This document shows positions 1,825-28,922 of a DNA stretch of 36,158 nucleotides, piece by piece. This DNA is from Leptolyngbya sp. FACHB-36 (GTDB lineage: Bacteria; Cyanobacteriota; Cyanobacteriia; Leptolyngbyales; Leptolyngbyaceae). The DNA is taken from the NCBI RefSeq assembly GCF_014695955.1, contig NZ_JACJPG010000187.1, forward strand, positions 1 to 36,158, in the 5' to 3' direction. The notes under the pieces were generated by a model. It was not told where the DNA came from. It did no database searches and saw nothing but the letters and a program-made list of their open reading frames with translations. The first letter of the stretch is position 1, and each line of letters begins with the position of its first letter. Made by a program: the position numbers and the translations under genes.

Positions 1825-4359
1825 GTGCTTAACGCCTTACGGCATCAGAGGTTGGCTCACAGTGTTGCGGTAGATCGTAACTGCCATTAGTAGAGAGTGC
1901 TCAACGCCTTACGGCATCAGAGGTTGGCTCACCGTCCCATAGCACCGTATTCCTACAGAATCGGTTTAGTGCTCAACGCCTTACGGCATCAGAGGTTGGC
2001 TCACGGTAGAAGGAACTAGGTTTTGATCTCTAAGGTTAAAGTGCTCAACGCCTTACGGCATCAGAGGTTGGCTCACTAGACCCTCAAACTGCTTACGAGT
2101 CAGTCCCAACTCAGGTGCTCAACGCCTTACGGCATCAGAGGTTGGCTCACTAGATTGAGGCAGAGTTTAGATTGCCGCCAGTGGGGTGCTCAACGCCTTA
2201 CGGCATCAGAGGTTGGCTCACTCCCTGCAATCTCACCACAATTTCGTCATCTTCTTCGGTGCTCAACGCCTTACGGCATCAGAGGTTGGCTCACTCAATC
2301 TCAACTCGGCTTACAGAAAATTCAGCTTTGTGCTCAACGCCTTACGGCATCAGAGGTTGGCTCACCACAAAAGCCGCGATCGCTGTGCCGTGGAAATACT
2401 CGTGCTCAACGCCTTACGGCATCAGAGGTTGGCTCACTTCTTAGGGTTTGCTGCTGGGAATTATTAGGCAGTTGTGCTCAACGCCTTACGGCATCAGAGG
2501 TTGGCTCACTTGCTTGCCTAACCACGTCACTGACGTCGCTAGAACGTGCTCAACGCCTTACGGCATCAGAGGTTGGCTCACCCACAGCTGCTGCACTGGG
2601 AACGGGTTCTCTAGTGGGTGCTCAACGCCTTACGGCATCAGAGGTTGGCTCACCCAACTCCTGAGAAGATAGTGACTCCTCTAGTAAAGTGCTCAACGCC
2701 TTACGGCATCAGAGGTTGGCTCACATTCTTTTACCCGTCCCTTTAGGTACTTGCCCATTAGTGCTCAACGCCTTACGGCATCAGAGGTTGGCTCACGGCA
2801 GATCTCTTAGGACTAGCGGCTAGTGATGGCATGTGCTCAACGCCTTACGGCATCAGAGGTTGGCTCACCAGTACCTGATCGATGTGCATCGTGACACCTC
2901 TAAGTGCTCAACGCCTTACGGCATCAGAGGTTGGCTCACTGCCCTAGGAGACATTTCTATCGGTCCTCAGTTCCAGTGCTCAACGCCTTACGGCATCAGA
3001 GGTTGGCTCACTGTCGCACCGAACAAACCCTCGAAAGCATCCCTGAGTGCTCAACGCCTTACGGCATCAGAGGTTGGCTCACTCCTGTGCAGTCTGGACG
3101 TGAATCCATAGAGTCTGGTGCTCAACGCCTTACGGCATCAGAGGTTGGCTCACCGCGTAGGACACCAGGAAGCGCTTGCTGCGTGTGCTCAACGCCTTAC
3201 GGCATCAGAGGTTGGCTCACGGGCGATCGCAGGCAGAGAGATTCCCGGCACCGATGGTGCTCAACGCCTTACGGCATCAGAGGTTGGCTCACAATCACAG
3301 AATTGCGAGTGATGCTGAGCGATCTAGTGCTCAACGCCTTACGGCATCAGAGGTTGGCTCACGGCTTGAACCGCAAGAACTCTCGGAACTGGCGAAGTGC
3401 TCAACGCCTTACGGCATCAGAGGTTGGCTCACCTCTTTCTGGCGGATAGGTGCAATTGTCTGTCAATCGTGCTCAACGCCTTACGGCATCAGAGGTTGGC
3501 TCACTCGATGGGATATGCCTCCAGCAAAGGCGCTAAAAACGTGCTCAACGCCTTACGGCATCAGAGGTTGGCTCACACCTCCGGCGTTAGTTGACCCTGT
3601 TTGTCTAGCTGTGCTCAACGCCTTACGGCATCAGAGGTTGGCTCACCTAGAAATCGATTACCGGAAGCTGTTCGAGTGACAAGTGCTCAACGCCTTACGG
3701 CATCAGAGGTTGGCTCACATCGACGGCAACAGAAACACTTCATCTTTGGTTTGGTGCTCAACGCCTTACGGCATCAGAGGTTGGCTCACCTCTCCTCTGG
3801 CGTGGTGAACCTGTTGCCGAATCGTGCTCAACGCCTTACGGCATCAGAGGTTGGCTCACAGGTGGGTGATGCGTATTGAAGCCAAGATAGCAGCGTGCTC
3901 AACGCCTTACGGCATCAGAGGTTGGCTCACATTCAGGGGTAAGCTTTGAAGGTCTTGCCATGCACCGTGCTCAACGCCTTACGGCATCAGAGGTTGGCTC
4001 ACTGTAGAGTCCGCGTTTGGACTTGACCTACTAGAAGTGTGCTCAACGCCTTACGGCATCAGAGGTTGGCTCACCGCCATCAATCCCTGCATTACCTCAA
4101 AATCAGATGAGTGCTCAACGCCTTACGGCATCAGAGGTTGGCTCACTTAAACCATTCGCGTACGCGAAGATTATGGAATTTGTGCTCAACGCCTTACGGC
4201 ATCAGAGGTTGGCTCACAACAGTTGCAGATAACGGGTCGCGCTGTTGAGATTGTGCTCAACGCCTTACGGCATCAGAGGTTGGCTCACAGACTGCCTTTC
4301 TCTTGGAATCTCCCGCTGGGCTGGTGCTCAACGCCTTACGGCATCAGAGGTTGGCTCAC
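1825..4359 (-). CRISPR. CRISPR array: 36 repeats of 36 bp, 35 spacers
   Basis: The repeat on the + strand begins GTGCTCAACGCCTTACGGCA and ends TCAGAGGTTGGCTCAC. Repeats start at 1825, 1897, 1969, 2041, 2115, 2186, 2259, 2330, 2402, 2474, 2546, 2618, 2689, 2761, 2833, 2904, 2976, 3047, 3118, 3185, 3257, 3327, 3397, 3469, 3541, 3611, 3683, 3754, 3824, 3895, 3967, 4039, 4111, 4182, 4253 and 4324. Spacers are 31-38 nt, mostly 35-36; the shortest (31) is 3154-3184 and the longest (38) 2077-2114. Only the first repeat (1825) shows a substitution (C to T at position 6). Read on the minus strand, the repeat has a hairpin GCC-GTAA-GGC followed by an 8-nt tail TTGAGCAC, the geometry Cas6 needs for a 5' handle. 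This makes the minus strand the transcribed one, with the leader at the cas2 end and the degenerate repeat at the trailer. ORFs reading through the array are artefacts. Confidence 0.97.
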
Positions 4360-4619: not shown

Positions 4620-4913
4620 TCAAATCACTCGGAAGCCATCGCCCGAATTGGACCACGTTCCGGGACGATTACACACCTGCACCCGCTCCACGCAGCGGTT
4701 ACAGAGTCCCACCAGCAGTAGATCATCCTCCGCTGTCAGAATCTGCTCCAGTTCCCATCGCAATTTCTCACGATCGCGCTGGCTCAGCCTGCATCGAAAA
4801 ACTGATAGCTGTACACTCTCCCCATATCCCTTAAGCAGTTTATGTGCTTTGCGCCAGCGTTTCGGATCGCGAATGTCGTAGGCAATTAGGTACCAGTGCT
4901 TGAGTTCTGCCAT
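4620..4913 (-). CDS. cas2: CRISPR-associated Cas2
   Basis: The 97-aa protein begins [20 protein letters not shown], with the beta-strand plus Asp (YDI) typical of the ferredoxin-like Cas2 fold, followed by [23 protein letters not shown]. Cas2 forms the dimeric core of the Cas1-Cas2 spacer-integration complex. The C-terminal ~20 residues are less typical of the family. The ATG is 4 bp past the cas1 stop with an overlapping AGGTAGGG ribosome binding site, so it is translated within the operon. It is the last gene before the array. Confidence 0.95.
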
Positions 4914-4917
4914 CGCC

Positions 4918-5874
4918 CTACCTCACAATCAGTTGAGCGAATAGACCTCCTTCACCCATCCATTCCTTCTCCAGCAGCCGGACTTCTAGCTCCAGTAAGC
5001 GACGGTAGGTAAGCGAGTAGCCAGTAACCGGATGCTTCCAGGTGTCTTCCTTGCGCCGTTCATACAAGCTCACGAACTTGCGGCGTCCACTCTCACTCAG
5101 CCACACCTGCGCCCCCCGCACCTCAAAATCTTCGCTAACATCCCACTGCTTGCGATTGATCGACGCTAGAACAGGCAGATCTACCAGCGGCACTCGAAAG
5201 ATTTCAATCAGGTCAAGGGCGAGTGGGGGCGCTTGAGTACGCGGCTGGTGATAGAACCCCAGAGCAGGCTCTAATCCGACTACTAAAATGGCATTCATCA
5301 CATCCTTTAGCAGCAGCGCGTAGCCAAAACCGAGCAGCGCATTAAACCGATCCTTGGGTGGGCGGCGGTTGCGATCGGTAAACTGAAGGGCAGGGTCAAC
5401 GCTGGCAGAAATCAAGTGCGGCAGTGCGCCAAAGTACAAAGCAGCTAGATTGCCCTCCAATCCCAACAGCGATGCGAGAGAAGCGGCTTTCGGCACCTGT
5501 TTCAGCACGGCTTTCATTTGCTCGATCGCAGCAGTCAGTGCGTCCGGAACCTCCGCCCTACCTCGCTGCCTACGCATCAAGAGCTTGCGCTGTCCCTGCC
5601 CTCGGCAATTCACCAACTTGCGAGCAAGCTCTAAGCAGGTTTCCGGGTTACTCAACGCGGCATATTGCCGAATTCGCCGCTGGATGCTGCCTTGTCGGGC
5701 GTCGAAGCTGCCCAGATACCGCCCACCCCCCGAAACAAAGTGAACGCCAATGTCTTGCTCGGTACAGAAATGCAGCGCCTGAGTGGAAATTTGGGAGTAG
5801 CTGTGCAGCACCACCTGCCCCACTTGCCGCGCAGGAACTTTCTCGATCGGTTGACCTTTGCGAGTGATCTTCAA
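4918..5874 (-). CDS. cas1: CRISPR-associated Cas1 (Cas1 half of a Cas4-Cas1 frame)
   Basis: Cas1 is the metal-dependent integrase that inserts spacers into the array. The expected catalytic residues are present: Glu140 (LLGLEGNLA), His209 (ALGFYHQPR) and Asp221 (LALDLIEIF). The N-terminal segment ([19 protein letters not shown]) is typical. The only usable start is TTG directly after the TAA that ends cas4, in the same reading frame. Reading through the TAA gives a sequence matching the junction of known Cas4/Cas1 fusion proteins. Cas1 is therefore either translated separately from TTG (weak GGTGA upstream) or made by readthrough. The domain itself looks intact at 318 aa. Confidence 0.93.
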
Positions 5875-6579
5875 TTATTCACCGCTTCTGCCAATGCACG
5901 TTCCGGGTTCCAAGATGTGCAGCACTTGACGATCGTCGTCTTCGGGAAATAAGCGCACGGGCTGCCATTCGCGGTCATGCACCAACCGCGCTTCTTCTGG
6001 CAAACATACTGGAGCCAATGAACAACGAGTACACAGCCGCTCATTGTCAGTTACTGGAGGACGATGGGTAGACATCCTGAGCGATCGAGCTTGCTCAATT
6101 GCGGCTCGAACGTCAGCACGCCCAGCCTCATCTAGTGGCACATGCACCAGCACGTTGTCGGCATGGTAGCGGATTCTGCCTTCTTGAACTGGAATTCCCA
6201 AGGCTGCCTCAATCAGGCAGGCGTAGGCGAGAATTTGCAGGCGATCGCTCTCCCAAGCTTGCGGCTGTTTGTTTTCGTCTCGATGGCAGCGACCGCGCTT
6301 ATGTTCGTAGGGAATCGTTTGCCCGTCACGAGTGCGGAGGGCATCGACGCGACCCCGCAAGCCTAACTCAGCATTTTCGAGAAACAGTTCTTCCCAGTCT
6401 TCATCTTCCTGTTTCTCAAGTTCAACATGCAGCCTGCGTCCGGCAAAAACTGCAGCATCTTGGGTGTATAGTTCTTCGACCTCCTCTAAATAGAACAACC
6501 GGGGACAATAAGCAAAAGCGTGGAGCGCAGACACACGGATCGTGCCCTGCTCTGTTGCAGGAGGATCTAACGTTTGCAT
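5875..6579 (-). CDS. cas4: CRISPR-associated Cas4 (Cas4 half of a Cas4-Cas1 frame)
   Basis: This RecB-like exonuclease takes part in trimming and orienting prespacers. Visible motifs are Cys25 (AFAYCPRLFYLE), Asp79 (LRGRVDAL), Glu92 and Lys94 (YEHKRG), Gln115/Tyr119 (DRLQILAY) and the Cys cluster C183-x2-C186-x5-C192 (LCTRCSLAPVC), which with Cys25 would bind an iron-sulfur cluster. The C-terminal residues HILEPGTCIGRSGE are not part of ordinary Cas4 but match the linker at the start of Cas1 in fused proteins. The frame then meets TAA and continues in frame into cas1. A single C-to-T change (CAA to TAA) would explain the split. The upstream gap of 300 bp suggests separate regulation. Confidence 0.93.
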   Translation of the reverse strand: MQTLDPPATEQGTIRVSALHAFAYCPRLFYLEEVEELYTQDAAVFAGRRLHVELEKQEDEDWEELFLENAELGLRGRVDALRTRDGQTIPYEHKRGRCHRDENKQPQAWESDRLQILAYACLIEAALGIPVQEGRIRYHADNVLVHVPLDEAGRADVRAAIEQARSLRMSTHRPPVTDNERLCTRCSLAPVCLPEEARLVHDREWQPVRLFPEDDDRQVLHILEPGTCIGRSGE

Positions 6580-6629: not shown

Positions 6630-6730
6630 ACACCCAAGGAGATTGCTATTCCTTGATGGTCCTGTCGTTAGAAGTACGGCTTTTTGAAGGAAGCATACAC
6701 CCGTACCTCTGGAATCTACAGGTAGACAAT

Positions 6731-6745
6731 GCAGTAATGCAGTAA
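6731..6745. promoter_or_regulatory. Operator-like 15-mer shared with the WYL promoter
   Basis: GCAGTAATGCAGTAA is a direct repeat of GCAGTAA with an 8-bp period. The same 15 bases occur on the opposite strand at 13957-13971, upstream of the WYL regulator gene, and a one-mismatch copy lies at 13842-13856. The WYL protein is the obvious candidate ligand. Confidence 0.6.
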
Positions 6746-6773
6746 TAGCAGATGGCTCAAGAGTGACAAAGAA

Positions 6774-6797
6774 AACGCCTTATGGCAATCAGAGGTT
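6774..6797 (-). repeat. Solitary CRISPR-repeat-like sequence (possible crRNA-like regulatory RNA)
   Basis: On the minus strand the 23-nt core of the array repeat (AACCTCTGAT, GCC, TAAGGCGTT) is kept with one inserted T and one G-to-A change. The hairpin GCC-ATAA-GGC remains, but the 8-nt handle is different (TTTTCTTT in place of TTGAGCAC). No second repeat is seen nearby. A -10-like TATAAC lies about 17 nt upstream of the conserved core. Single degenerate repeats inside type I cas operons are known to encode CreA/CreR-type guide RNAs that steer Cascade to a promoter; that role here is inference. A leftover repeat is the alternative. Confidence 0.6.
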
Positions 6798-6879
6798 CAG
6801 CACTCTGTTAACAGTTATAGTCATATCTTCAGTTTTCAAGGTTCAAAAGCTTGAGTCGAAGCTGACCGTTACAACAGCA

Positions 6880-7557
6880 TCAGGTTGAGCGCTTTCCTCG
6901 CTTCGCTTGTGCTGATTTTGCAGGCGCTGTAGTCACAGGCGGCTTGATTGAAATCAAACACTCGTCGCTGTATCCCAGTTCAGACATTGAGAAGCGCTGA
7001 AACGTTCCTTGCGTGGTTTGGCGATCGATCCACACGGGCAAGCCAATTAGCCCGCGATTGTCCTTAACAAGCCAGCGAACCACGCCATCAGCTTCCCGAT
7101 AAAGCCTTGCACCGTTAATTAACGCCCAAGACTCACCGAGAGACAGCCCACCAAAACGGCTGATCTGTCCTGGGGTAGACAGAGCAATTGCCACAAGATC
7201 GGACAGCTTCACTGCTGCCGATTCCTCGCTAGAGTCAAGCTGGATCACCACCTGTAAATCTGTAAGCAGTTCATGATGGTTTGGTTTTGAGAACTGACTG
7301 GTTGGGTATGTGCCCAAGTGTTTGACGCTGAACTTGTGGTGGCGCTGTTTGCGAACGATGCGGGAAATCGGCGGGTCGTCGCCAATAATGCCGATCCCCA
7401 GCTTCACTCCAATGTGCGCCATCATATCTACCTCGCCCACTAGCGACAGCAGCAGCCCATAAACTGTTGAGGGTGGTGGATAGCGATAGGTTTCTTTGTA
7501 ATCCCGTGCAAAGCTGCGAGGAAAGCTAGTGCAGGGGCAATCGAGGTAAAGCAACAT
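6880..7557 (-). CDS. cas5: CRISPR-associated Cas5 (DevS-like)
   Basis: Cas5 is the RAMP subunit that caps the crRNA 5' handle in the Cascade complex. The 225-aa protein starts MLLYLDCPCTSFPRSFARDY, and has the typical PPPSTVYGLLLSLVGE helix and a glycine-rich segment RFGGLSLGESWALIN near residues 133-147. The Lys/Arg-rich tail is not diagnostic. It overlaps cas7 by one base (TAATG), so it is translationally coupled. Its neighbours and size fit the Cas5 of MYXAN-type modules. Confidence 0.88.
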   Translation of the reverse strand: MLLYLDCPCTSFPRSFARDYKETYRYPPPSTVYGLLLSLVGEVDMMAHIGVKLGIGIIGDDPPISRIVRKQRHHKFSVKHLGTYPTSQFSKPNHHELLTDLQVVIQLDSSEESAAVKLSDLVAIALSTPGQISRFGGLSLGESWALINGARLYREADGVVRWLVKDNRGLIGLPVWIDRQTTQGTFQRFSMSELGYSDECLISIKPPVTTAPAKSAQAKRGKRST

Positions 7558-9938: not shown

Positions 9939-12155
9939 TTACAGTTGATACACGCCCATATCTGACGAGTAACCCCAAGCATCCGCTGGAGCCACAGGGT
10001 ACCGCCGACACTTTTCCCACCCTTTGGTTTGCTTGCTGCTCACCACCAGCGGCACTGTGTAGCGCGGTAATCGTTTTGCGGATAGCTTTTCCACCGTTTT
10101 TACGTCCTGCTCCAGCAGTACCGTTGTGGTGTAGCCCGCTTCCCGTAGTGATGCTGGGTAGGTGCGCCACTCGCCATCAAGCCACACGGAGTCAAGATCG
10201 GGCTTGCCTCGTACTGCTGCCTTTTCTAGCCACTGTGCGAGATCCACCTGACAAACTTCTCCGCCAAAACTTTGTACCAATGCGGCACCTGCATCAAGTT
10301 CATCCTGGCTGTAGGGAAATCCCACTTTCTCATCGGGATAAAAAATGGCATCCAGAGCATGACCGCAGTAGCGACGATTCAGCCGCCCCAATCGCTGGGT
10401 CAATCCTGCGGGGTCAGCGATTTGAGATACCAAGAGCGTGGCGGATAAATCCAGCGACATTTCAGCAACCTGGGTGGCGATCGCCATCACCGCCCCTTCT
10501 GCCTTAAACCGATCCACGACTTCTCGGTGATGGTTAACACGATCGCCATACTTGTAGCGACTGTGATACAGCAAGGGTTGTAAGTCGTGCTGTCGCGCCT
10601 CGTGATATACCGAGATTGCCGTATTCACTTGGTTGCACACCCACAGAATTTTGCCGCCCTGCTTAAATTCAGCTTTCACCCGCTCCCAATCGGGTGCATC
10701 AGCCAGATGAAACCGATAACGGGGTTGAGTCTCCAGCTCCTCCGGTCCCTGGATGATCTCGACCGCTTCACCTACAGCGCTTTCAATCGCCTGCACCTGC
10801 CACGGCAAAAACGAGGCGGACATCAGCAAAACAGGTGCTTTCACGACCTCCAGAAATCGCAGCAATGCTCCAAACAGCTTGTCGTCATAGCAATGCACTT
10901 CATCAAAGACGAAGGCAGCTTGGGCGATCGCAGGAAAGCAATACATCGGGCGACGATTGCATTGCAGCAGCCCTAAAACGGTATCGACGGTGCAAACGCT
11001 AACTTTGGTACTCCAGGCCTTGAACGACTCCAGTTTCGTCTCAAGGTCATCGTCATCGCCCGTTGAGTGTAGGTCTAGATGCTCTAGATCGACGGCAGCG
11101 CGGGTGTGCAACAGGGTCGAGTCTACTTTGTCGTGAGCGTAGTCTAGAAAGCCTTCGGTGCTGGTGCCCGTTGTGGGGTAGCAGAAAAATAGCTTGCGCC
11201 CCACAGCATATCGTTTTGCCCAGTTGTATGCGCCCAACGTTTTGCCCGTACCGCAACCTGCCCGTGCCAGCGTCACCCGTGATGTCGCATTACCGAGCTG
11301 TTCTTGGAATGGACGCAAGAGATCGCCCTTCAAACGCTCATCGACAACATGCTGTAGCTCTGGTTCTGTCAGCGTGTAATGAATTTGGGTCTGAATCCAT
11401 GGTCGGATTGCTACATCATTTGCAGGTAAAGCTGATCCACTCGTATCGCCCGCCACCAGCAACGCTTTGACAACGGCAGTCAAGACGGGATCAGGCTCCC
11501 ATTGCGCGAGTTCGCTCAAAATGGTTTGTCGGCGTTGCTTAATGTCGGCAATTGTCCAAACCGTTGGCAAGCCTTGAGGAATCTCTGAAGCAAGTTCACA
11601 AGCTTTTTGCCCGTAGCGCAGGAGTCCGGTAAAGTGCTGATGATTTGTGTAGAGCAGCAGGCGATCGCCCCGCGTCCACGTATCGACTCCAGACTCACGA
11701 ATTTCGCCAATTTCATCCGTTTGTCTGCCGCCTTCACCGCCCAATTTGAGATGGTGTCCGCCTGCTGCCGCGATCGCAATCTTAAAATCACCCTCGCCCG
11801 TTGCTAACCAATCTCGCAGTTCCCACGCCAATAAAACTGACAGTGCTTCATGCCGCATCAACTGGGGATGCTTCATCGGATTCTTCAGCTTGCGAACCAC
11901 TGCTTGAAAGTGGTCATTTGCTTTACCTAAGTCATGAAGAAAAGCAGCAAGACGAGCGGTGGCGCGGAGCGTTTTACGATGTTGATATAAGCCAAATTGA
12001 GCGATTAATTGATCACTCAGTTCATCAACTAACGTCGTTACGGCTTCAACGACAGAAGCAGTGTGTCCGACCAAGGTATAGGCTCCTTTCCAGGAGGCCT
12101 CTTTTGATTTCGCAAGTAACAATTTAGGGTACAGGGTTTGATTTTTAGCTGACAT
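9939..12155 (-). CDS. cas3: CRISPR-associated Cas3 (HD nuclease plus DExH helicase)
   Basis: Cas3 is the effector nuclease-helicase recruited by Cascade to unwind and degrade target DNA. The 738-aa protein has an N-terminal HD domain (His31 in VGHTASVVE, His74-Asp75 in FLHDLGKAN, His102, GGHH near 133) and a C-terminal SF2 helicase. The helicase motifs are Walker A AGCGTGKT near 299-306, DEVH near 418-421, SAS near 446-448, and motif VI TQRLGRLNRR. All look intact. The ATG at 12155 is chosen because GGGAGGA precedes it; it overlaps cas6 by 11 bp. The reading frame continues 13 codons upstream without a better start. Confidence 0.96.
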   Translation of the reverse strand: MSAKNQTLYPKLLLAKSKEASWKGAYTLVGHTASVVEAVTTLVDELSDQLIAQFGLYQHRKTLRATARLAAFLHDLGKANDHFQAVVRKLKNPMKHPQLMRHEALSVLLAWELRDWLATGEGDFKIAIAAAGGHHLKLGGEGGRQTDEIGEIRESGVDTWTRGDRLLLYTNHQHFTGLLRYGQKACELASEIPQGLPTVWTIADIKQRRQTILSELAQWEPDPVLTAVVKALLVAGDTSGSALPANDVAIRPWIQTQIHYTLTEPELQHVVDERLKGDLLRPFQEQLGNATSRVTLARAGCGTGKTLGAYNWAKRYAVGRKLFFCYPTTGTSTEGFLDYAHDKVDSTLLHTRAAVDLEHLDLHSTGDDDDLETKLESFKAWSTKVSVCTVDTVLGLLQCNRRPMYCFPAIAQAAFVFDEVHCYDDKLFGALLRFLEVVKAPVLLMSASFLPWQVQAIESAVGEAVEIIQGPEELETQPRYRFHLADAPDWERVKAEFKQGGKILWVCNQVNTAISVYHEARQHDLQPLLYHSRYKYGDRVNHHREVVDRFKAEGAVMAIATQVAEMSLDLSATLLVSQIADPAGLTQRLGRLNRRYCGHALDAIFYPDEKVGFPYSQDELDAGAALVQSFGGEVCQVDLAQWLEKAAVRGKPDLDSVWLDGEWRTYPASLREAGYTTTVLLEQDVKTVEKLSAKRLPRYTVPLVVSSKQTKGWEKCRRYPVAPADAWGYSSDMGVYQL

Positions 12156-12801
12156 TGGCTTCCTCCCGCGTTGGATAGAACCAACCACAGCCAAAGTGTT
12201 GTCTTCCTCCCAATCCGTGCCATTGCAGCTTTAGCGAGTCTTCCTGGTTCAGCCCTTCTACCACCACACCATAGCCGACAATTTTCTTATCCTTCACCTG
12301 TAGGGTGCGTCGGGCTAGATCGCCGTTGGCATCACTGGGAATGAATGCTTGACCCTTAATTTCTAAACGTTCCAGCCCCTTTTGACAGGACTCTAAAAAG
12401 TACCGGGGCACTTCTGCATGGTCGATCGCATCCAGCTTAAACGTCACCAGTCTTGATGCCAATGTCTCGCTCGCTTCTGGTAGCGTAATTCTTGGCTGGA
12501 CCAAGCGAATTAAATGACCTCGAATATCAAAAACTTGGTCTTGCAGGAGTCGATACCAAGTTTGCATTTGCTCCGATGGACAGCGGACTCTAAATCGTGA
12601 ACCTCGATTCAGATAAATCATGCCAGCGCGATCAGAAATGCCCGGTATGCTACATAAGCGAACTTCTAAGGGTAAGTCCTTCGGCAGTGATTCATCTTCG
12701 GTTTCTTGAAGCAGTTTTTTGACGGCGGAATACAGTGCATATCCATGATCCGCAGGCAGTGTTCTACCTCGTAGTGCAAATTGAATCTCCAGAAAATTCA
12801 T
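12145..12801 (-). CDS. cas6: CRISPR-associated Cas6, crRNA-processing endoribonuclease
   Basis: The 218-aa protein starts MNFLEIQFALRGRTLPADHG, the N-terminal RAMP strand and DHGYALYS segment of Cas6 (His19 a candidate catalytic residue). It ends with the glycine-rich loop GLGGRQHFGCGWF that contacts the repeat hairpin. Cas6 cuts the pre-crRNA at the base of that hairpin; the array repeat read on the minus strand has a suitable hairpin and 8-nt tail. The ATG at 12801 is 4 bp past the WYL stop with GGAGAG upstream, and is preferred over an in-frame start 27 bp earlier. Confidence 0.9.
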   Translation of the reverse strand: MNFLEIQFALRGRTLPADHGYALYSAVKKLLQETEDESLPKDLPLEVRLCSIPGISDRAGMIYLNRGSRFRVRCPSEQMQTWYRLLQDQVFDIRGHLIRLVQPRITLPEASETLASRLVTFKLDAIDHAEVPRYFLESCQKGLERLEIKGQAFIPSDANGDLARRTLQVKDKKIVGYGVVVEGLNQEDSLKLQWHGLGGRQHFGCGWFYPTREEANVS

Positions 12802-12805
12802 GGTT

Positions 12806-13780
12806 CTAGCTCTCCAAATATTGCTCATTCATTTCAACAACCTCTGCCTTCACCATTTCCACTAACTCCGGTGGCTGCCGCACGATTGCTCCTCTCCCAT
12901 ATCCCAACACCCACCGCTTCAGGTCATTCAGACCCCGTACAACCATATGCAGCGTGACTGATCCATCCGGATGCTCTTGAAGCTCCTGCGTCGGATGCCA
13001 GCGCCGCTCCCGAATATACGGAGCCGTGGGCGCATCAAACCAAATCGACACAGGCAGCGGTACCCCACCCGCTTCGTGCTGGAAGATCATCTCCAGGTGG
13101 TCCTTAGCATCGAAGGTGGGGTCAGGCACAAATGTCTCTTCGAGTACCTGAAGCTGCTTGATGCGATCGACTCGGAACCAGCGAATTCCTTGACGCTTGT
13201 GGCAGTAGCCGATCGCGTAGGGATTGGTGCCCCGGTAGATATGCAGCAAGTAGGGGTCAAACTTGCGCTCAGACACAGAGTTGCTGCTGGCGGTGTAGTA
13301 GGTCATCTGCACCGACATTTGCAGACGACAGGCATCCTCCAACCTGTGCCAAATCTCTGGGTTCAAGTCAATCTCTGCCCCTGAGCGAAACAAAATCCGC
13401 TCATCTGCCACCTGTTGCAGGTCCACCCAAGACTGCTGCGGTAGTCGCTCACTCAAACGAGTAAGCGCTGAGCGCAACTCCGGTGCATAGGCTGATCCAG
13501 CATTTGCCTCCAGCATCCGTGCCCCTAGTATTAATGCAAACAGTTCTCCCTTACTGAGGGTAATACTCGGTAGTCGCCAGTCTGGATCAGTGTAGTAGTA
13601 GCCCTTCTGCCTGTTGAAATCGATCGGAGCGTGGTAGCGGTCGCGCAAAAAGTTCAGATCGTTACGAACCGTCCGTTCATTGACCTCTAACACCACTGCC
13701 AAACTGCCAGCCGTGTGTCGTTGTCGTTGTCTACGCAGCAGATCGTCAAGCTGTAGGAGTCGTTCAAGGCGGAGTAACAT
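12806..13780 (-). CDS. WYL-domain transcriptional regulator of the cas operon
   Basis: The 324-aa protein has an N-terminal winged HTH (RRQRQRHTAGSLAVVLEVNERTVRNDLNFL, about residues 16-46) and a WYL-type sensor domain (about 140-215, including YGCHK-like YAIGYCHKRQGIRWFRVDRI), then a C-terminal WCX-like region. WYL regulators commonly head cas operons in cyanobacteria and usually repress them. It is the first gene of the leftward operon, so it probably controls itself and the cas genes. The upstream GCAGTAATGCAGTAA-type repeats are candidate operators. ATG at 13780 has AGGTGA upstream. Confidence 0.9.
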   Translation of the reverse strand: MLLRLERLLQLDDLLRRQRQRHTAGSLAVVLEVNERTVRNDLNFLRDRYHAPIDFNRQKGYYYTDPDWRLPSITLSKGELFALILGARMLEANAGSAYAPELRSALTRLSERLPQQSWVDLQQVADERILFRSGAEIDLNPEIWHRLEDACRLQMSVQMTYYTASSNSVSERKFDPYLLHIYRGTNPYAIGYCHKRQGIRWFRVDRIKQLQVLEETFVPDPTFDAKDHLEMIFQHEAGGVPLPVSIWFDAPTAPYIRERRWHPTQELQEHPDGSVTLHMVVRGLNDLKRWVLGYGRGAIVRQPPELVEMVKAEVVEMNEQYLES

Positions 13781-13841
13781 GCATCACCTGTTGTAGATTG
13801 ACCCTATCGTAGGGAAACTACCCGGAAAAAACGTTTCCGCC

Positions 13842-13856
13842 TTACTGCAATACTGC
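13842..13856. promoter_or_regulatory. Operator-like direct repeat, proximal site of WYL/cas promoter
   Basis: TTACTGCAATACTGC differs by one base from the 15-mer at 13957-13971. It lies 62 bp upstream of the WYL start. Between it and the gene are two further inverted repeats (GGAAAC/GTTTCC and CCCTA-TCG-TAGGG) in the promoter segment. The preceding CGCCTTACTGCA also resembles the middle of the CRISPR repeat (11 of 12 bases). Confidence 0.5.
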
Positions 13857-13956: not shown

Positions 13957-13971
13957 TTACTGCATTACTGC
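13957..13971. promoter_or_regulatory. Operator-like direct repeat, distal site of WYL/cas promoter
   Basis: TTACTGCATTACTGC is the exact reverse complement of the 15-mer in the cas5-cas4 gap (6731-6745). It lies 176 bp upstream of the WYL start, immediately after the end of the preceding gene. Two spaced sites suggest cooperative binding by the regulator. Confidence 0.55.
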
Positions 13972-14750: not shown

Positions 14751-15301
14751 TGTCCCGTTGTCCTATAAGACAGTTGGCAAGCGTCCTGTAGGTTAGTTCC
14801 GAGCATTGGGTCGTAAACGTGCTTTCCCTGTGGGCACCAGCGCGATCGCCCACTCATCACCTGCAAAATCTCTGCGACAGGTCGCCGCTCCTGCTCCACC
14901 AGCCGCTGCACATCGCTGATGAGATGATTCTGAATGTACTGCTTGCACTTCCGGCGCTTGCCGTCCTCGTCAAGCTCAGTCCAGCAGTAATAGAAGCTGA
15001 TACAGGGCACCCATCGGCGCGTGTTCCCAGTCCGTTTCTCGATCCACCCACTAGCCTGACCTTTGAGCGATCGTCGTCGCTGTCGGGGTGGGGAATAGGG
15101 AATGGAAAGTGGGGACTCAGACGGTTGTTCTGGGGTACAAATTTTTTCCTCTATACAAAGTGTTCTACTGGTAGAACCGTTTTGAGAAGAAAAATCCTTG
15201 TTCTGGGGTATAGCAAACCTGGGGTTATCGATCCAATACTGCTGAACCGTAGAGAGCATCGACTCTTGATAGCCTGCCAGTGCACTACTAACGCTCTCCA
15301 T
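14747..15301 (-). CDS. Conserved-looking hypothetical protein, basic
   Basis: A 184-aa protein not assigned to a family. Its middle part (GWIEKRTGNTRRWVPCISFYYCWTELDEDGKRRK) is dense in Arg, Trp and Tyr, and then VQRLVEQERRPVAEILQVM looks helical; the pattern suggests a nucleic-acid-binding protein. The ATG at 15301 is chosen because GGGAGG precedes it by 5 nt. It overlaps the small gene upstream by 14 bp. The last codons run into the TGTCCT box. Confidence 0.6.
   Translation of the reverse strand: MESVSSALAGYQESMLSTVQQYWIDNPRFAIPQNKDFSSQNGSTSRTLCIEEKICTPEQPSESPLSIPYSPPRQRRRSLKGQASGWIEKRTGNTRRWVPCISFYYCWTELDEDGKRRKCKQYIQNHLISDVQRLVEQERRPVAEILQVMSGRSRWCPQGKHVYDPMLGTNLQDACQLSYRTTGQ
14751..14792. 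promoter_or_regulatory. TGTCCT/AGGACA box A
   Basis: Three half-sites in the order TGTCCC, TGTCCTATAAGACA, GTCCTGTAGG, with linker GTTGGCAAGC, lie immediately upstream of the start codon at 14750. The same arrangement, with nearly the same linker, occurs upstream of the start at 34353 and at 17989-18027. It also overlaps the 3' end of the upstream gene. Confidence 0.6.
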
Positions 15302-28348: not shown

Positions 28349-28543
28349 TCAAACCTTTATCTCTAGTCGCCTCTCCAACACCTCTAGCCGTCGCTTGACC
28401 TGAGCCAGTTCATCCTCTGGGGTGGCTGGCTCTAATTTATGCAGCAGCGCATCGATCACGAACTGCGATCGCTCTTTCTCGTTCTGGGGTAAACGCTCCA
28501 TCAGGTCCGGTGGAATGCGAAGCGAGAGCCGAGGGTTAGGCAT
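28349..28543 (-). CDS. RHH-like (CopG-type) protein with coiled-coil tail
   Basis: A 64-aa protein: the first part PNPRLSLRIPPDLMERLPQN, EKERSQFVIDALLHKL has the strand-helix-helix of CopG/MetJ-type regulators, then a short coiled coil (DELAQVKRRLEVLERRLE). Seven GGTGACA direct repeats lie immediately upstream of its ATG, as expected of an autoregulated RHH protein that binds direct repeats. Confidence 0.7.
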   Translation of the reverse strand: MPNPRLSLRIPPDLMERLPQNEKERSQFVIDALLHKLEPATPEDELAQVKRRLEVLERRLEIKV

Positions 28544-28650
28544 GGTGACAGATTGGGTACAAGTGGTGACAGATTCACTAAAACTTGGTGACAAGTGGTG
28601 ACAGAGGGTGGTGACAGATTTCCCTTAAGTGGTGACAGCCAGTGGTGACA
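28544..28650. repeat. Seven GGTGACA iterons upstream of RHH gene
   Basis: GGTGACA starts at 28544, 28565, 28587, 28597, 28610, 28631 and 28644; five copies extend to GTGGTGACAG. Spacings (21, 22, 10, 13, 21, 13) are close to whole or half multiples of the helical turn. Direct-repeat arrays of this kind serve as plasmid origins, centromeres or RHH operators. Confidence 0.8.
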
Positions 28651-28922
28651 GGCTTGGGGCAATTGTGCCCGATCGCTGTCTCCACCCATCACTAGAGTAC
28701 ATTTGCTCCGCTTATCGGCAGTAATCCATTAAAAAACGTTGCCCTTCTGCTATACACGCAGTAGGACAACGCGCTGAAATTACCACTACATGTGCATATC
28801 AAGACTTGAGCTAGTCCAATACTGAATATTTGGACTAAAACAGATTTAAATAGGCTGTCAGCAGCTAGTAAATTGTGCCCATGCGATACAGAATTCTAGC
28901 GATCGTTCAGTGACATAAGTCA
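28651..28922. other. Gene-free segment next to the iterons
   Basis: No gene is seen. It has GGGCA-ATTG-TGCCC (about 28657-28671) and the inverted repeat AGTCCAA/TTGGACT (28813-28836), and is fairly AT-rich after 28720. With the iterons this could be part of a replication origin, but no clear DnaA-box cluster was noticed. Confidence 0.4.

Follow-up and report, generated by a model that had tools for sequence, protein, structure and literature searches.

The window, the whole 36,158-nt stretch of Leptolyngbya sp. FACHB-36 DNA that we analysed, carries a type I-B (MYXAN) cas operon on its minus strand, comprising a WYL regulator, cas6, cas3, cas8, cas7, cas5, cas4, cas1 and cas2. The CRISPR array lies on the same strand as the cas genes, and cas5 and cas4 are separated by a gap of 300 nt. 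The general features of the locus, together with those of three related loci, are listed in Table 1. A single in-frame TAA at 5875-5877 (minus strand) splits cas4 from cas1, which in most relatives form one frame of about 550-580 codons; a mutation, an assembly error and a true split are the candidate causes.

Table 1. Positions of the genes and sequence elements discussed (window numbering, except for the mini-arrays of relatives).
Feature	Position	Strand	Remark
HTH-WYL-WCX transcription regulator	12806..13780	-	
cas6 (Cmx6 type)	12145..12828	-	TIGR02807, E 1e-50
cas5	6880..7557	-	final gene ahead of the element
cas4	5875..6579	-	gene directly after the element
cas1	4918..5874	-	separate from cas4 here; single frame with cas4 in relatives
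cas2	4620..4913	-	
CRISPR array, 36 repeats GTGAGCCAACCTCTGATGCCGTAAGGCGTTGAGCAC	1825..4359	-	degenerate end repeat at 1825
boxA-like motif GAACCTTGAAAACTGAA	6828..6844	-	also found in the 16S-23S rRNA spacer of cyanobacteria
Solitary CRISPR-repeat core AACCTCTGATTGCCATAAGGCGTT; Cas6-type hairpin GCC-ATAA-GGC(G)	6774..6797	-	repeat score 36; hairpin recurs in relatives
crRNA 5' handle position, degenerate TTTTCTTT	6768..6775	-	array handle is TTGAGCAC
Would-be pseudo-spacer	6730..6767	-	without ATG-PAM seed match
Tandem TTACTGCATTACTGCA, operator-like	6730..6745	-	149-153 nt upstream of cas4 in the window, L146 and L154
Second hairpin-forming motif AGAGGTACGG...CCGTACTTCT	6670..6710	-	by-eye recurrence in L006, L005, L146 and L197; z -1.75, weak
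Tandem motif, copy 2, GCAGTAATGCAGTAA	13957..13971	-	upstream of WYL
Tandem motif, copy 3, GCAGTATTGCAGTAA	13842..13856	-	upstream of WYL
Palindrome CGGAAACGTTTTTTCCGG	13822..13839	-	about 42 nt upstream of WYL
cas3-cas8 mini-array, L148	8353-8446		locus turned with cas genes on +
cas3-cas8 mini-array, L159	8330-8423		locus turned with cas genes on +
cas3-cas8 mini-array, L167	9199-9289		locus turned with cas genes on +

The cas5-cas4 gap holds a solitary sequence related to the array repeat, and its core differs from the array core (AACCTCTGATTGCCATAAGGCGTT versus AACCTCTGATGCCGTAAGGCGTT) by one inserted T and one loop substitution, G to A, exactly as the earlier note had claimed. Outside the array, no sequence in the window matches the array repeat better: it scores 36, compared with 22 for the runner-up and a maximum of 27 in Markov shuffles (n=60). 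It shares the minus strand with the array and the cas genes, and the observation that it keeps the Cas6 hairpin but has lost the 8-nt handle also stands: the GCC/GGC stem is present, albeit weak (-4.1 kcal/mol versus -10.3 for the array repeat), and the handle position has degenerated. As in the cognate array, the hairpin has the GCC-N4-GGC stem and U-G closing pair of a Cas6 substrate, and the inserted T is not necessarily a barrier to Cas6, because the GATTGCC form serves as the array repeat in two relatives (L013 and L063). The Cmx6-type cas6 product is presumably the candidate protein for binding and cutting this hairpin, which lies 196 nt from cas4. The -10-like TATAAC noted previously just upstream of the repeat is present at 6819-6814, but no sigma-70-type promoter was scored there, nor did a promoter scan return one elsewhere in the gap; a terminator scan of the gap found none on the minus strand and one terminator-like site on the opposite strand.

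Comparison of the gap in relatives, which the earlier note had proposed, covered 108 non-redundant type I-B/MYXAN cas4-upstream regions, nearly all cyanobacterial. Hairpins were called with a fixed pattern that required a repeat-like sequence with an intact stem, and the background was taken from shuffles. A repeat-like hairpin is present upstream of cas4 at 50 of the 108 loci, where shuffles predict 0.3% per locus. These loci fall largely into two arrangements. In arrangement A (34 loci, the majority having other, distant effector genes; Nostoc sp. FACHB-280 and Westiellopsis prolifica IICB1 are examples of hosts) the hairpin mostly lies 26-48 nt before cas4, and in arrangement B (15 loci including the window) it is further upstream and mostly has a boxA motif ahead of it. 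A further 23 loci, arrangement C, have no hairpin near cas4 but a palindrome, CGGAANNNTTTTTGCMGG, that precedes this gene by about 45-72 nt; 36 have neither element. The hairpin and the palindrome occur together at only one of the 108 loci (Fisher p 2e-6, not corrected for phylogeny). This suggests that the two replace one another upstream of cas4, although the suggestion goes no further because the A, B and C labels cluster on the Cas4 tree and tests on independent pairs had too few pairs for power. Gains and losses are frequent on that tree, with 12 changes for A and 7 for B. Since 58 of the 108 loci are free of the hairpin, it must be either dispensable or replaced.

A MAFFT alignment of eight diverse cas5-cas4 gaps shows two conserved blocks, both in the upstream half, which are boxA and the hairpin. 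The boxA of the window has no mismatches and lies 32 nt upstream of the hairpin; the two motifs co-occur at 12 loci, 14-54 nt apart and always with boxA upstream. There is no close copy of GAACCTTGAAAACTGAA elsewhere in the window, and in close relatives all boxA matches with up to two mismatches are in the cas5-cas4 gap. Since none was found near array leaders, boxA and the repeat are not a copied leader. In six other genomes the pattern ACCTTGAAAACTGNATA occurs ten times: all five loci checked with Rfam lie between 16S and 23S rRNA, four occurrences are further copies in the same genomes, and one (in G512) is at a cas gap, adjoining the cas4 of L213. The boxA core that acts in rRNA-operon antitermination, GAACCTTGAAAACTG, is identical to that of the window.

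Loci of arrangement A have a different companion to the hairpin. Among 35 hairpins within 100 nt of cas4, 25 show significant pairing with the 26 nt directly ahead of the start codon, and the typical layout places the hairpin 26-48 nt from cas4 with an anti-repeat ending 1-4 nt before the start. We aligned 21 sequences of this subgroup; class A loci that are arranged differently or in which no pairing can be seen were left aside. In these 21 relatives every cell of the Cas6 stem (100%) is paired, while its sequence varies (U-G, C-G, U-A). The anti-repeat helix is paired in 86.9% of cells, compared with 30-52% when the partner is slid, although the choice of rows favours the helix. Its covariation score was reached by 3 of 500 shuffles and comes mainly from one strongly covarying pair (U-A 10, C-G 6). 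RNAalifold recovers the Cas6 stem alone from this alignment, after which the anti-repeat helix was tested specifically. A comparison of pairing across all 108 loci, which is independent of row choice, separates class A from the rest, where the pairing is as a rule lacking (p 1e-9, with related loci counted separately). Formation of the Cas6 stem precludes the anti-repeat helix and vice versa, and therefore binding of Cas6 would open the cas4 start; the pairing in subgroup A thus suggests a Cas6-sensitive switch. In the window itself, ATAAGGC can pair with AAGCCTTAT, which lies near the cas4 start, although not significantly (p 0.34).

The earlier note had interpreted the solitary repeat as a possible guide RNA of the CreA/CreR type, and relatives of the window provide positive controls for this. 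Six of them (L148, L159, L167, L107, L160 and L016) have two-repeat mini-arrays between cas3 and cas8, with repeats about 70 nt apart and the handle TTGRGCA(C/A), and most of these are followed at about 100-146 nt by an ATG-PAM seed match, which precedes a small gene located between cas3 and cas8. The mini-arrays would be consistent with CreA/CreR-like regulation of cargo. In a test that requires an ATG PAM with a seed match and scores p≤0.05 as positive, four of the six are positive (L148, L167, L107 and L160); L016 gives p 0.10, and L159 gives p 0.13 over the whole locus, although a nearby target can be seen there. No mini-array is present in the window, where the cas3-cas8 gap is 15 nt. The window element, tested at five offsets from -2 to +2, has no ATG-PAM seed match above chance (p 0.93-0.97, about 0.95), so its pseudo-spacer does not qualify as a guide by this test, and seed searches of the window and of its own genome likewise yield no match above chance. 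Among solitary cas4-upstream elements generally, only 1 of 36 is positive. No second repeat was found after the pseudo-spacer of the window, and the 8-nt 5' handle needed for Cas5 binding is missing. Handle matches out of eight average 3.6 in subgroup A and 2.9 in subgroup B (chance 2.0), compared with 7.0 in the first and 4.0 in the second repeats of the mini-arrays. Because its handle scores low, the solitary element resembles a second repeat, for which Cas6 recognition alone matters. A CreTA toxin-antitoxin unit was also considered and rejected, as the gap has no ORF of at least 80 aa on the cas strand and no guide target, although a six-codon toxin RNA would escape this search.

What remained of the guide proposal was the resemblance of the end of the pseudo-spacer to the region upstream of WYL. 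This match was reported as 15 of 16 nt, and we confirm that TTACTGCATTACTGC (6745-6731, minus strand) is exact over 15 nt on the plus strand, where the maximum in the null is 11. It is repeated in inverted orientation at 13957-13971 and, differing at one base, at 13842-13856. As had been pointed out, it lies at the PAM-distal end, far from the seed. It probably represents a tandem TACTGCAT motif that serves as a protein operator, since a tandem 8-bp motif common to two promoter regions fits a DNA-binding protein, and the competing operator explanation that the earlier note mentioned is the better reading of it: one-mismatch forms of the motif precede cas4 by 149-153 nt in L154 and L146 (L049 being nearly identical to the latter), yet L146 and L154 have no copies at their WYL promoters, L154 having one copy 973 nt away. 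Candidate binders are WYL and a 62-aa protein encoded just upstream of it (14171-13983, minus strand), which has weak HicB/ribbon-helix-helix similarity, below the curated cut-off. Most close relatives with a WYL gene, and the window too, have the palindrome CGGAANNNTTTTTGCMGG about 42-70 nt ahead of that gene, and for this reason the palindrome is probably a WYL operator; its presence upstream of cas4 as well in the 23 loci of arrangement C points to a putative link between the two promoters.

We propose, with a probability of about one half, that the element is a Cas6-recognised, non-guide hairpin in the cas transcript that would allow Cas6 to control cas4-cas1-cas2 separately. The proposal builds on a conserved cas-strand hairpin at the boundary of two gene modules that has lost the guide handle, and that is accompanied by boxA in the window's subgroup and by an anti-repeat at the start of cas4 in subgroup A. 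The polycistronic transcript would retain the hairpin at the point where the effector genes (cas6-cas3-cas8-cas7-cas5) end and the adaptation genes (cas4-cas1-cas2 with the array) begin, and Cas6 would bind and probably cut it there, separating the two modules; for the window, we infer such processing from position and conservation. Free Cas6, abundant when Cas6 is high and pre-crRNA scarce, would then set the expression of the adaptation genes. At the boxA an antitermination complex would assemble that serves transcription over the long distance across cas4-cas1-cas2 and the untranslated array, and the pseudo-spacer would be a protein-binding control region of cas4 and not a spacer. Cyanobacteria are not known to have Rho, so a Rho-based rationale for boxA may not apply. 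Weighing against a Cas6 site are the weakness of the window hairpin with its inserted base, the insignificant switch pairing in the window, the many hairpin-free loci and the limited phylogenetic independence of the loci compared. Only tentatively do we extend the proposal to cyanobacterial type I-B/MYXAN systems as a whole, in which a Cas6-sensing RNA may control spacer acquisition: free Cas6 would bind the hairpin in the cas4-cas1-cas2 leader, where in subgroup A it would compete with an anti-repeat closing the cas4 start, and in subgroup B, which includes the window, it would cut the transcript after a boxA borrowed from rRNA. If this is true, the supply of pre-crRNA feeds back on adaptation.

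Other explanations account for parts of these data. The repeat could be a functionless relic of a former array or of ectopic spacer integration, which would fit the degenerate handle and 5' flank, the weakened stem, the frequent changes on the Cas4 tree, and the almost intact handles of L006 and L106, as expected of younger copies. We regard this as unlikely, as a relic would not be expected in nearly half of the loci at a mostly similar distance to cas4 or boxA, with a stem fully paired in the 21 aligned relatives despite decay of the handle and an anti-repeat that follows the repeat changes; the array leaders, being without boxA, are also not a source for the pair. Somewhat less probable still is that the gap is simply a DNA control region of cas4-cas1-cas2, its tandem motif being bound by WYL or the small RHH-like protein, and that the repeat has no role. 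The equal distance of the motif from cas4 in the window, L146 and L154, its two copies upstream of the window's WYL, and the near-exclusive distribution of palindrome and hairpin speak for such a region, but it accounts for the pseudo-spacer and leaves unexplained the conserved hairpin, which lies ahead of the motif and is found at many loci that are motif-free.

A role in transcription attenuation, with the hairpin and T-rich sequence forming a conditional terminator relieved by a boxA complex or by Cas6, seems improbable to us. T-rich tails do follow the hairpin in boxA-type loci (GTTTTTTCC, GTTTTTCC, ATTTTTGG) and boxA precedes it closely, but the stem in the window is too short for a terminator score and subgroup A has no T-run. 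We give least credence to a guide, in which a crRNA-like RNA from 6797-6730 would send Cascade to the WYL/cas promoter. A repeat with a Cas6 stem on the cas strand, its 15-nt match to the WYL upstream region and the existence of such guides at cas3-cas8 in relatives made this worth considering; against it are the missing handle and second repeat, the failed seed test here and at nearly all solitary elements while most positive controls pass, and the nature of the match itself, a PAM-distal tandem motif shared with cas4 regions of relatives that have no copy at the WYL promoter.

We note the parallels between the element and the CreA/CreR and standalone-repeat guides, which are also degenerate repeats on the cas strand that lie outside an array but within a type I cas operon and have a Cas6 stem (PMC8501985, PMC9458426, PMC12737573); in contrast to these, the window element has no handle, second repeat or target with PAM and seed. 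The second repeat of CreA, psi-R2, functions in Cas6 processing of the 3' end (PMC8501985, PMC9458426), and the window hairpin is retained in the same manner. The mini-arrays of relatives share the repeat family and operon type with the element, but only they have two repeats, a handle and a target. The s479 RNA of Haloferax volcanii is matured by Cas6 and adjoins cas genes, a neighbourhood like that of the element, although its handle is crRNA-like and it targets zinc-transport genes in trans (PMC8155600). Racrs, the RNA anti-CRISPRs, are solitary repeat mimics like the element, but are encoded in viral genomes and not in a cas operon (PMC10651486).

Ectopic repeats found in cas operons are by default taken to be guides. 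The element is conserved, yet fails guide tests that the neighbouring class of mini-arrays mostly passes, and this indicates a second, non-guide use of repeats, in which Cas6 would regulate its own operon and spacer acquisition; this bears on how type I adaptation stays low and when it is released. Shmakov et al. 2023 is said to be a published survey of standalone repeats. The boxA motif was reportedly described upstream of CRISPR arrays by Stringer et al. 2020, where it is in the array leader, whereas that of the window lies between cas5 and cas4.

Several minor observations were made in the gap and elsewhere on the contig. The sequence GTACNNNTGTAT...AAAAANNCCGTAC at 6670-6710 (minus strand) is seen by eye in other cas4 leaders of the window's subgroup as well, and in those of L006 and L005, and GTACNNNTGTAT has the appearance of a cyanobacterial LexA box or of a hairpin. 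By eye, a CAGAGGT complement was recognised 70 nt beyond the window repeat, with a similar one in L154; it is taken as chance. At one end of the window a tRNA (40-112), the sole family returned by an Rfam search of the window, is followed by a 376-aa ORF (227-1357) of integrase-like appearance, and dispersed copies of a TGTCCTGTAGGACA-like palindrome (repeat family D4) are found at 14753, 17990, 19846, 25179, 27624 and 34356; given these features, the contig may be a mobile element. Iterons of GGTGACAG (repeat families D8 and D13) are clustered at 28543-28651, as at a replication or partition site.
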